Source: Zeus faber (lineage: Eukaryota; Chordata; Actinopteri; Zeiformes; Zeidae). From it: a stretch of DNA of 64,000 nucleotides. The notes beneath the pieces were generated by a model. The model saw nothing but the letters and a program-made list of their open reading frames with translations, searched no databases and had not been told where the DNA came from. The stretch is taken from NCBI GenBank assembly GCA_960531495.1, contig OY482848.1, forward strand, positions 12,247,565 through 12,311,564. Reading direction: 5' to 3'. Both the position numbers and the translations under genes were made by a program. How positions within the stretch are numbered: position 1 is the first letter of the stretch; each line of letters begins with the position of its first letter. This document shows positions 46,694 through 54,406 of this stretch, in pieces.

Positions 46694-49600
46694 CTAGAAT
46701 GTATATGTAGTTTGAGGTATTGAGTAAAGTGAAAGGTGACGCACAAACTCATCCTCATAAGCTAGTATCATGCTGTGCATCTCCAGACTCCGCCTGAGGA
46801 AAGAGAGAACAAAGATGTGCAACTGATAGAGCTGGTTTGGAACCAGCCCGAAAAGGGCTTTTTATTTAATATTGTATTTTTTTTCTTACAGAGGCTTATC
46901 TCCAAACTGCCTTCTCCCTGGAATTAAAAAAGAATATACTGTTATTTGTATGTAGGTTTGACATTTAACAAGAGTAACAAAGGTCCATCCTTCAAGATGT
47001 ACGACACACAATATAAGACAATATATAATAGGGTATTGAACAACGAAACAACACAATATTGAATTACACATGATATATGCTTTTCAATGATTCTCAAAAG
47101 ATGGCTGAAGCTCTCGTCGATTTTCAGCCTTTAAAATATATCTCAGGGAAATACTGATCAGTGTAAATGCAAACTTACTAAACATCACTCCAACACAGCA
47201 ACATATAGAGACCAAGGTTACCAGGAACAAGAAGCAGCCAAAGACAACCACAACCACCAACAGTGGAAGACGATTCAGCACTGGAAGGTGGAGGAGGAAA
47301 TGTGGTTGAAATAATATAAAATCACATCCCATAGACATCGGTTTCTATACTTTTTTTGGGGCCGGCCAATGTATCAGTAGTACCTTCCATGTCTAAATAC
47401 AGGTCTTCACTCTTTATACTAGTGGTATTGTCAAAGCTGTCGGACACTTCACAGTGGTACGTCCCAGCGCTGCTCCTCCCCACAGAGAGCAGGAGCGCGG
47501 GCGGCTGCGGAGGCTGGTGCACCGCCCAGTAGAACGTCCCTCGGCTTTCCAGGAGGCTTCCGTTGAGGAACCACTGGTAGCGTGGATGGGATCCCTTGGC
47601 CACTTGGCAGAAGAGTCTCAGTCCAACCACACAAAAGTCCTCTCCAATGTCATAGTCGAAATGAATCGTCCCAGGGCCACCAACTGATACTGTTGGGATG
47701 GGATTATTACAGGGGGGTTTTCAGGCCAGGTAAATACATACAGATAAACAAATAAACAGGCTATAGCCTATGAATAGCCTTAAATGTCCACACAATTATA
47801 CAATCCACATACCCACTTCTAATGCCATCCATCGACTATGCGTAATCCGGTCGCCATTCTCTGCCTGGCACTGGAGCCATCCCAAATGGTAGTCTAGTTC
47901 CACGGCAATGGTAAATGTGGCGTTCCAGTCGTCTACTGTCTTATTAGTGACAAAGTCTGTTCTGTTGTAGAGCGAAAATGTGATCGGGAGAGTCCCCCTG
48001 GTCGACCGACAGGTGACCAAGGCCGAATAGTTCTGGAAGCTCCTTTTCACCACGGTGAAGGAGATGTCCGCGTCAGACACCAGCTCTGTGCACGGGGAAA
48101 TGGTTGTTCCAGTAAACGTACCGCATGTACGGCACAGGAAGTAGGACCTATGAATATTTCTGCGGCATTCTGTTCAAATCAAGCGCCACCATCACTGTCC
48201 GTCCATTGTATAGGGAGGAGAGCTGACCTTTGACCGTGATGAGGACTTCAGGACTGTGGGCGGTGTAGACCTCCGTCTCGTTGAATTGGTTGGCGGCGAC
48301 ACACGCGTAGCTCCCGCTGTCTCGGGGAGTGGTTCTACGGATAACACGCACGGCTCGTTATTTCATTCACATCTGCATAGCGGTCGCGAAATCTACCTGC
48401 GGGTGTCAACGCCTTCACGATCCAATATCCAACACTACCGTTCTGTTTTCAACAAGGAGTGCACCCACGTCCTGGCCAAGTGGTCGCATAGACCCCACCC
48501 CTCATATTTCTTACTTACTGCCAATAAGACACAAAGGCGTCAAGTTGAACATCCACTGACCTATAAACCAAGAGTTGCTCATGCACGGGAAAGCGGAAAG
48601 GAGATTGGAGCACATGCTGGCCATTGAAGAGCCAGCTGTAGGAGAGGTGGTTCCCAGATGTGACGTTACAGCGCAGCGACAGAGTCCTCCCCTCATAGAA
48701 CTCCACCGGACCCGACTGGACGACAAGCTTCGCACCGCGCACCGGCTCTGCAAGGAAGGCACAGCAACGCAGCCTTGAACGCACATGAGATAATTATTAT
48801 TATTATTTTTTAAATAAAATAAAAGATAGAGTACGTCACGCTTTAGGACCCATAGAATTAAATGTAGAAAACCCCAAAAACAGCGATGTCAGTTTTTCGG
48901 ATGCAAAAATGTGCGATTGTGTGGCCTGACTCAGAAACTCACCGACGACCCTGAGGTGGTGTCTGTAGCTGACGGTGGGTTGTATCCGGGAGTTGTTCTG
49001 CACACTGGCCACACACTCCAGGAAGCCCTCGTAGGACGCTCTGACGACCACCATGAATGTTGCCTTCTCCCCTTTAATGGAGGTGTATTCGCCCAGGAAC
49101 TTAGACCGGTCGCCTTCCCTAGAAAATGTCCGATTTCAGCGAGAGGGTTTCATTATTCAACAGACAGATCCCTTGTATTTACTATTCTTTACCAGTGATT
49201 GTTACATTTCCGTCTGCCCCTCAGATCTAGCTTGATGTGACCAGTGTCGGCTGGTGACGATATTGGATGTGAGGGCAAAATTAAAGTCTAATATCCGTCA
49301 ATAACCAGCACTGCAGGATCACATTTCACAGCCTGTACATGTTACAGCGGTGGCACTAGAAAACCCGCATTCCCAGGTTTCCATCTCTGAGTGCACCCAG
49401 TACGGCCCAAACGCTCTTTGGTTTTGGAATAAAATGGTCTTTGTCGTGAACTGAGCCACCAGTGTCACCGTGTAATTTATGTAATTTGTGCAACACGCAA
49501 CACTGCAATAGGCTGATATGCACAATGATATGCAGAGCTTAGGGCTAGTGAGTAATTAGACCCTCCAGCCCCAACTTGACATTACTCCGACTCTCGTTTC

Positions 49601-50182
49601 TTTTTCCTTTTTTCCCCTGCTTTACCCAAGAGTAATTTGTTTCAAGGTAGTTGCTGACGTGGAATATGACAACATACGTATTTTATCATATTTACTGTAT
49701 CTTAAAAAATATATATAGGCGGAATACTTAGCCCTACGCTCACTTATATAACTGCAGCAGAATGAGTTCTTCTGGGAAAGTTTTCACCTCACAGCCAAAG
49801 TCTACTATCTCCCCGACCAAAGCTACATTGGGGCCGTCCAGCATCGGAAATCCTAGATATGCAGCATCTAGAAAATGCAAAGGTATAAATAAACACTCTC
49901 GGCAGATGGTTTGGTGAAGTATGAGGTGGTATGAAAATAACAAAATGGTATCAACTCATGTGCATGAGTACACACACAAATACATTCACAACATTAACAC
50001 CTAACAATTAATATCTTACTGGTTTCCATGGCCCAGTGCCCTAGTGAGAGGGGGAAAAAGAAAAAGAGTTAAGGTTAGAAAAGTTCCAATGCGTTAAATA
50101 ATATTCACTACTATTCACATTGTTATCGGGTTCTTGATTAGAATATCTTACCCATTATAACGACGAATATTAATGATGACAT
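46694..50182 (-). CDS. Transmembrane Ig receptor B, PECAM/FcR-like
   Basis: A predicted 484-residue type I surface receptor. Exons: 50182-50152, 50040-50020, 49867-49744, 49118-48943, 48747-48561, 48334-48228, 48085-47813, 47689-47384, 47280-47179, 46917-46890, 46793-46694. A signal peptide is encoded by two small exons (the second only 21 bases). Four Ig domains follow at about residues 18-117, 118-215, 216-306 and 307-408, with cysteines in VDFGCEV/LECVAS, LSLRCNV/YACVAA, ALVTCRS/LQCQAE and LRLFCQV/YHCEVS. The membrane segment (about 413-440) is LPLLVVVVVFGCFLFLVTLV plus SICCC. The tail has RRRQFG, ILAYEDEF and TTYTF but no canonical ITIM. Ig domains 1 and 2 are each split by a phase-2 intron not present in receptor A. 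The family resembles PECAM1 and FCRL proteins; orthology is discussed in the findings. Confidence 0.82.
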
Positions 50183-53800: not shown

Positions 53801-54406
53801 TAAAATCAATAAAGTCAAAAATACATGATCTGTTTGTTTGGGTTTTTTTTGGGTCATGATTCAAATATTTGCCTAGAAGCAATGAACCACAATAGATGTT
53901 GTGTGAAAATACACATAAATACATTGCAGTATATACTGTAATATACATAATTATTAATTATTTTTCCACTTCTTGTGAATGTTGTTTTATATTGTATTGC
54001 CCCCCCCCCTTTATGTGTTATGTTTTTTTATGTATTCAGTGACATTTTCTGCTGCTTTCTGGGCCAGGTCTCCCTTGTAAAAAAAGATTTTGAATGTCAA
54101 CTAAACCAACCTGGTAAAATAAAGGTAAAATAAATAAAGAAATACATTAATAGAAAAATAGATTACAGTACCAGTCAAGAAATGATGAACACATCTTGCA
54201 GGTATTCATACATTTGTGAAACTTACTTATCTTTAGGACCAAGTTCAGCAAGCCTGGAAAATGTAACATCAAAAGCAGAATCGTTGAGGTTGTGTTAATT
54301 TATTGTCGAAATGATGTGTCTAAAAATTATTAGAATCTATTAGTTTATCAAGAGATGTTTTCAACTCACCCAAACCCGGGAGCAAAATAAATAGTGGAAT
54401 CTTCAT
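50822..54406 (-). CDS. Transmembrane Ig receptor A, PECAM/FcR-like
   Basis: A predicted 481-residue type I surface receptor, tandem paralogue of receptor B about 640 bases upstream of it. Exons: 54406-54370, 54253-54227, 53782-53507, 53340-53068, 52607-52335, 52214-51882, 51566-51459, about 51112-51085, about 51000-50931, about 50842-50822. The signal peptide is [13 protein letters not shown] plus a 27-base second exon. Four Ig domains, each one exon, span about residues 22-113, 114-204, 205-295 and 296-406 ([52 protein letters not shown]). The membrane exon (407-442) has [20 protein letters not shown]. The short tail is rich in Ser and acidic residues ([13 protein letters not shown]), ends in LEITV, and has no ITIM. 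The three tail exons are the least certain, but their phases and the 28-base size of the first match receptor B. Confidence 0.82.
51601..51800. repeat. (ATCT)n microsatellite
   Basis: About 45 ATCT units with CTGT variants at the right end. It lies in the intron before the membrane exon of Ig receptor A, 35 bases from that exon. Confidence 0.97.
53437..53493. repeat. (CT)n microsatellite
   Basis: About 28 CT units in the intron between Ig domains 1 and 2 of receptor A, close to the donor of the domain 1 exon. Confidence 0.97.

Follow-up and report, generated by a model that had tools for sequence, protein, structure and literature searches.

A tandem pair of four-Ig receptor genes in the fish Zeus faber, candidate positional counterparts of mammalian C17orf99 (IL-40)

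Introduction

Three reports describe interleukin-40 (IL-40), encoded by C17orf99, as a gene found or expressed only in mammals, with a receptor that is not identified and without high homology to any other protein (PMC12967690, PMC8566875, PMC10923619). For the FCRL receptors, Guselnikov 2008 gives a signal-exon rule of 30/21 base pairs (bp) (PMC2413239). According to Akula 2014, zebrafish has four FcRL5-like genes, one pair on chromosome 3 and another on chromosome 7, and consensus immunoreceptor tyrosine-based inhibitory motifs (ITIMs) are missing from many FcRL (PMC4016189). Among the papers searched by word, none contained IL-40, interleukin-40 and fish together, each as a whole word. Here we describe a minus-strand tandem pair of immunoglobulin (Ig) receptor genes, A (54406-50822) and B (50182-46275), located in the stretch C4:12247565-12311564 of the 803-Mb Zeus faber assembly (64,000 nucleotides, hereafter the window; positions are those of the window unless marked C4).

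The two receptor genes are flanked by a synaptogyrin-type (MARVEL) gene on one side and a TMC gene on the other, and they contain the two highest-ranking places in the genome for PF17736, the Pfam domain family built on C17orf99 (cut-off 26 bits). We lean towards the reading that A and B are type I membrane receptors of the FcR/FCRL/PECAM group at the mammalian C17orf99 (IL-40) locus and the positional counterparts of IL-40; the latter may be a reduced form made of the first and third Ig domains (D1 and D3) of such a receptor.

Results and Discussion

Architecture and kinship of the two receptors

Both gene models were built exon by exon from splice sites, with GT-AG junctions and consistent phases, and are predictions made without transcripts. 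A consists of nine coding exons (54406-50822; 470 amino acids) and B of thirteen (50182-46275; 515 amino acids), B extending past 46694, the lower edge of the interval given in a preliminary description of this DNA. A and B are built alike, with a signal peptide over two short exons, four Ig domains, one transmembrane segment and a tail. The two tandem four-Ig transmembrane receptors announced in the preliminary description are thus borne out by the exon models, and the five motif strings that it quoted were all recovered in the translated models (5/5), including TEASFLVAV in A and WNATFTIAV in B. On the whole proteins, the Pfam Ig_3 profile gave E values of 2.1e-24 for A and 1.5e-21 for B, which excludes chance for A and B being Ig receptors as such. 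The exons of A are as follows.

54370..54406, minus strand: 37-bp exon opening the coding sequence and the split signal peptide (ATG, GT donor)
54227..54253, minus strand: 27-bp mini-exon, end of the signal peptide (AG/GT, phase 1)
53507..53782, minus strand: Ig domain D1, C17orf99-type (PF17736, 41.8 bits scanned alone)
53068..53340, minus strand: Ig domain D2, ordinary Ig_3/I-set type (Ig_3 E 2.4e-9)
52335..52607, minus strand: Ig domain D3 (Pfam 'ig' 22.7 bits, cut-off 21.8; partner of B-D3)
51882..52214, minus strand: Ig domain D4 (exon model; best partner B-D4; scanned only within the whole protein)
51459..51566, minus strand: transmembrane exon (exon model), with a single acidic residue in the outer portion
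50930..50994, minus strand: cytoplasmic exon (exon model; acceptor at 50994 or 50999, unsure)
50822..50842, minus strand: last coding exon with stop (exon model)

Each of the four Ig domains of A occupies one exon with phase 1-1 borders, and the tail of about 34 residues carries no tyrosine. Scanned alone, A-D3 reached 25.1 with Ig_3 and 13.1 with PF17736, both below the respective cut-offs. A long TCTA/TCTG microsatellite lies at 51600-51800, in the intron between the D4 and transmembrane exons. The exons of B are as follows.

50152..50182, minus strand: first coding exon, 31 bp (exon model)
50020..50040, minus strand: 21-bp signal-peptide mini-exon (exon model)
49744..49867, minus strand: Ig domain D1, first half (exon model; phase-2 intron within the domain)
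48943..49118, minus strand: Ig domain D1, second half (exon model; pairs with A-D1)
48561..48747, minus strand: Ig domain D2, first half (exon model; Ig_3 match at residues 125-195 when the whole protein is scanned)
48228..48334, minus strand: Ig domain D2, second half (exon model)
47813..48085, minus strand: Ig domain D3, C17orf99-type (PF17736, 33.9 bits scanned alone)
47384..47689, minus strand: Ig domain D4 (exon model; scanned only within the whole protein)
47179..47280, minus strand: transmembrane exon (exon model)
46890..46917, minus strand: basic juxtamembrane exon (exon model)
46745..46793, minus strand: cytoplasmic exon with the sole tail tyrosine, not an ITIM (exon model)
46509..46574, minus strand: cytoplasmic exon (exon model)
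46275..46352, minus strand: last coding exon with stop (exon model)

In B, D3 and D4 are single exons, and D1 and D2 are each split by a phase-2 intron. These two introns (49867-48228) sit at different places of their domains, the four domains of A being uninterrupted, and may have been gained by B independently of each other. The tail of B has about 81 residues and one tyrosine. In the translated models, neither ITIMs nor immunoreceptor tyrosine-based activation motifs (ITAMs) were present in either tail, which holds at most one tyrosine.

Seven of the eight domains found their best partner in the domain of the same number in the other receptor, the exception being A-D1, which prefers FCRL5 domains. 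A tree of 29 domains joined the two D1 (95/93) and the two D3 (90/87) and formed a D2/D4 group (95/94). These pairings mark the two genes as tandem duplicates.

The C17orf99 domain profile across the genome

A-D1, A-D2, A-D3, B-D1 and B-D3 were each scanned in isolation, and the remaining three domains, A-D4, B-D2 and B-D4, within the whole proteins. In the isolated scans PF17736 exceeded its cut-off on A-D1 (41.8 bits) and B-D3 (33.9 bits), was weak on A-D3, and gave no match on A-D2 or B-D1. On the whole proteins, the profile scored 49.6 bits over two stretches in A and 37.6 bits over one stretch in B. As diverged same-numbered partners, the domains at the other odd-numbered positions of A and B are probably also of the C17orf99/FCRL-D5 type, and positions D2 and D4 hold Ig domains of the ordinary type.

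In the whole-genome search with PF17736, 20 candidates were scored, nine of them at E<=1 and three above the cut-off: A-D1 ranked first (42.0 bits), B-D3 second (32.9 bits) and C4:7900548, which is D5 of a separate and genuine fish PECAM1, third (30.6 bits). No place of the genome other than these three passed the PF17736 cut-off. This ranking is an informative test, the profile being blind to position and its top two places lying nonetheless in the syntenic interval. It is also in agreement with the expectation that no IL-40-like gene exists at a different fish locus, the only other place above the cut-off belonging to PECAM1, a gene that takes the MILR1 and PECAM1 queries.

As controls, the two domains of human IL-40 together scored 239.7 bits; of the four human PECAM1 domains scanned, D5 reached 38.9 bits, D6 27.7 and D2 18.4, and D3 had no match; two FCRL5 domains gave 34.4 and 27.5 bits. 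Here and below, the human IL-40 and MILR1 sequences and most of the human PECAM1 sequence are provisional versions. Since PECAM1 D5 and D6 and FCRL5 pass the cut-off, the profile marks a domain type common to IL-40, PECAM1 and FCRL.

Position of A and B between the synaptogyrin and TMC genes

The location between SYNGR2 and TMC8 stated in the preliminary description stands, with MARVEL and TMC pieces on the two sides of A and B and with the paralogue names assigned by position.

41606..45516, minus strand: synaptogyrin gene on one flank, named SYNGR2 by position; limits approximate; one MARVEL piece reaches the cut-off and a second stays below it
45244-45516, minus strand: synaptogyrin first exon, read by eye
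58575..59297, minus strand: part of the flanking TMC-family gene (TMC8 by position); PF07810, 75.9 and 37.3 bits

The MARVEL piece at 42.5-42.9 kb scored 32.8 bits, exactly the Pfam cut-off, and a second one at 41.6-42.1 kb scored 20.6 bits, under it; this gene is read as a synaptogyrin, and as SYNGR2 rather than a paralogue by position only. On the other side, the two TMC pieces at 58.6-59.3 kb were well above the PF07810 cut-off of 25. The whole-genome search with PF07810 located a second TMC gene, on the plus strand at C4:12324197-12324927, about 17 kb past the minus-strand TMC gene of the window. The opposite orientation of the two fits a TMC8/TMC6 pair, paralogue identity again being given by position, and TMC8 and TMC6 are arranged in the same manner in human. 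Followed along the direction of transcription, the fish genes come as TMC, A, B, synaptogyrin, compared with TMC6-TMC8-C17orf99-SYNGR2-TK1-AFMID in human. With the SYNGR and TMC paralogues named by position, A and B occupy the same interval, in the same orientation, as human C17orf99.

Elsewhere in the window, a CANT1-like apyrase exon was found at 9234-9623 (192 bits), CANT1 being another neighbour of the human 17q25 type. Further along the window on the synaptogyrin side, there is a weak esterase match under the cut-off, which we take to be a fragment of AFMID. Retroelement-like frames lie between the synaptogyrin gene and this fragment (23372-23995, 28671-29272, 30383-31577 and 34559-34966), reverse-transcriptase-like by eye and with a match to the integrase p58 C-terminal domain under the cut-off. 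A second, head-to-head TMC pair is located at C4:11400839-11418262 beside NOMO-like frames; this pair is probably TMC7/TMC5. Inspection by eye of 20 kb next to it revealed no Ig receptor.

Relation to IL-40 and the alternatives

IL-40 and the fish receptors share the interval and the orientation as well as PF17736 domains, with IL-40 D1 resembling A-D1 and IL-40 D2 resembling B-D3; in contrast, IL-40 is secreted and has two Ig domains, whereas A and B each have four, are anchored in the membrane and carry a tail. The link in sequence is at the level of profiles. A-D1 was the best of 40 domains for IL-40 D1 under BLOSUM62, 45 and 80 (z 10.6, 10.3 and 10.4; runners-up 8.4, 9.8 and 8.1), and B-D3 came only 10th, 11th and 13th. 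For IL-40 D2, B-D3 ranked 4, 2 and 1 of 40 under the same matrices and A-D1 12th, 9th and 15th. In a run with 28 partners, A-D1 again led for IL-40 D1 (z 13.3, next 8.3), and for IL-40 D2 FCRL5 came first and B-D3 fourth. The approximately unbiased (AU) tests rejected none of the groupings, neither IL40_D1+A_D1+B_D1 (p 0.17) nor IL40_D2+A_D3+B_D3 (p 0.37). On the favoured reading, IL-40 and the receptors would share descent, and the change would have run from receptor to secreted protein.

A series of results weighs against this descent, and they are given here together with the explanations that they favour. The style of the domains, which the preliminary description had likened to that of IL-40, is not IL-40-specific, being common to human PECAM1 D5/D6 and FCRL5. 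B-D3 precedes fish PECAM1 D5 by just 2.3 bits, and B-D1 scanned alone has no Pfam match at all. The genome query with human IL-40 gave six matches, the best elsewhere at E 0.65 and none at this locus. With the A ectodomain as query, the 11 matches were the four exons of A itself followed only by places at E 0.0028 or worse; B was not among them, the search being too blunt for counting the family. The trees containing IL-40 give no supported clade of mammalian IL-40 with domains of A or B, and the AU tests equally allow rival groupings. The proposal that IL-40 is a secreted remnant of a receptor family that fish keep in the membrane is thus supported in part, by location, orientation, genome ranking and the IL-40 D1/A-D1 pairing, and is weakened by the preference for FCRL5, the weak trees and the empty IL-40 query. 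Our preference for A and B as counterparts of IL-40 is slight because of the weak grouping of A-D1/B-D1 with FCRL5 and because the A ectodomain search misses B; the same two points lower the odds of a descent of IL-40 from such receptors and raise those of the FCRL alternative given next.

The strongest competing explanation, which we nevertheless consider unlikely, is that A and B are plain teleost FCRL (FcRL5-like) receptors lying here, IL-40 being an independent offshoot of the D5-type family that shares only the neighbourhood. FCRL5 is the nearest solved protein in PDB for A-D1 (E 2.2e-22), B-D3 (3.1e-11) and A D2-D4 (3.1e-23); FCRL5 is also the nearest for human IL-40 (6.3e-11), and a human PECAM1 D5 query of the same collection returned no PECAM1 chain, so the FCRL5 ranking was obtained without some competitors. 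The pairing of IL-40 D1 with A-D1 is not reciprocal, A-D1 scoring higher with FCRL5_a (z 14.5), FCRL5_c (13.5), human PECAM1 D5 (12.5) and B-D1 (12.1) than with IL-40 D1 (10.9), and FCRL5 is ahead of B-D3 for IL-40 D2 in two of the three matrices (BLOSUM62 and 45). In a 17-domain tree, A-D1/B-D1 group weakly with FCRL5 (73/79), and the pair of IL-40 D1 and D2 (49/14) falls across the split, with PECAM1, MILR1 and A-D3/B-D3. Fish receptors grouping with FCRL5 while IL-40 lies elsewhere is part of the outcome named in the preliminary description as contrary to its proposal; the split is weak, the position of IL-40 is hardly supported, and the AU test leaves IL-40+FCRL5 standing too (p 0.13). The signal exons of B (31/21 bp) agree with the FCRL rule of about 30/21 (PMC2413239), and those of A, also two in number (37/27 bp), fall outside it. 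The split signal peptide of B with its 21-bp second exon and the D5-type domains are further likenesses to FCRL. The FCRL5-like zebrafish receptors, two of the four on chromosome 3, could be the same genes as A and B; the words TMC and SYNGR2 are absent from the main text of the paper that reports them (PMC4016189). Against it, A and B differ from FCRL by tails devoid of ITIM/ITAM, by alternating domain types and by lying outside any FCRL cluster. A two-domain FCRL5 query of the genome gave weak matches (best E 0.0047) and placed A-D1 only 11th of 24 (E 0.126), whereas the C17orf99 profile places A-D1 and B-D3 first and second, and this explanation needs an accidental coincidence of best profile match and location.

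A derivation of IL-40 from MILR1 or PECAM1, with A and B as unrelated occupants of the interval, seems to us improbable. Both genes are on the same human chromosome arm as C17orf99 and both carry C17orf99-type domains; in MILR1, as in IL-40, two such domains lie next to each other, and human PECAM1 D5 reaches 38.9 bits with PF17736. The 29-domain tree pairs IL-40 D1 with fish PECAM1 D2 (82/52; flagged as long branches meeting), the AU test leaves IL40_D1+MILR1_D1 standing (p 0.26), and MILR1 D1 is a better-scoring partner of IL-40 D1 than B-D3 is. The fish PECAM1 lies at C4:7897261-7905921, on the same chromosome as A and B, with six Ig-type frames and the tail frames VEYTEV and TVYSEL; PECAM1 and C17orf99 share a chromosome in human too. 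However, as partners of IL-40 D1 the domains of MILR1 and PECAM1 are outscored by A-D1 in each of the three matrices, and the human MILR1 query finds only PECAM1 in this genome (a single match, D5, E 4.8e-5, five candidates scored). The human PECAM1 D5-D6 query ranks fish PECAM1 first and second of 10 matches, and neither A nor B is found in the MILR1 match or among these 10. PECAM1 differs as well in architecture, with six Ig domains and two tail ITIMs, compared with four Ig domains and no ITIM in A and B.

Chance resemblance among Ig domains at a coincidental location is very improbable: the closest identities of the focus domains (26-29%) and the weak trees would allow it, but the whole-genome ranking, the profile scores and a set of 12 generic Ig domains taken from this genome, whose highest z with IL-40 D1 (7.0, 6.9 and 4.0) stays below A-D1 in each matrix, speak against it.

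Proposed origin of IL-40 and its implications

In the case where A and B are the counterparts of IL-40, the two domains of IL-40 would correspond to D1 and D3 of an A/B-type receptor, and the loss of D2, D4, the transmembrane segment and the tail would yield a secreted protein; the present difference could reflect domain loss on the mammalian side, a gain on the fish side or a replacement at the locus. With some doubt, we put forward that IL-40 may not be a mammalian invention and could descend, in secreted and shortened form, from a four-Ig membrane receptor of bony vertebrates that is still present in duplicate between SYNGR2 and TMC8 in fish, the odd C17orf99-type domains D1 and D3 having been kept and D2, D4, anchor and tail lost.

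Concerning function, we infer that A and B could be leukocyte-surface proteins binding a protein ligand through their outer Ig domains. Because their tails are without a tyrosine signalling motif, they probably work by way of a partner chain, in adhesion or as decoys, and the acidic residue in the transmembrane segment of A would fit such a chain. Mammalian IL-40 could then be the soluble ligand-binding part of such a receptor.

A fish positional counterpart with matching domains would give IL-40 an ancestry and suggest that it started as a receptor ectodomain. If this is true, the ligand of the fish receptors would point to the IL-40 receptor, and the partner of IL-40 could be searched for by way of the fish receptors.

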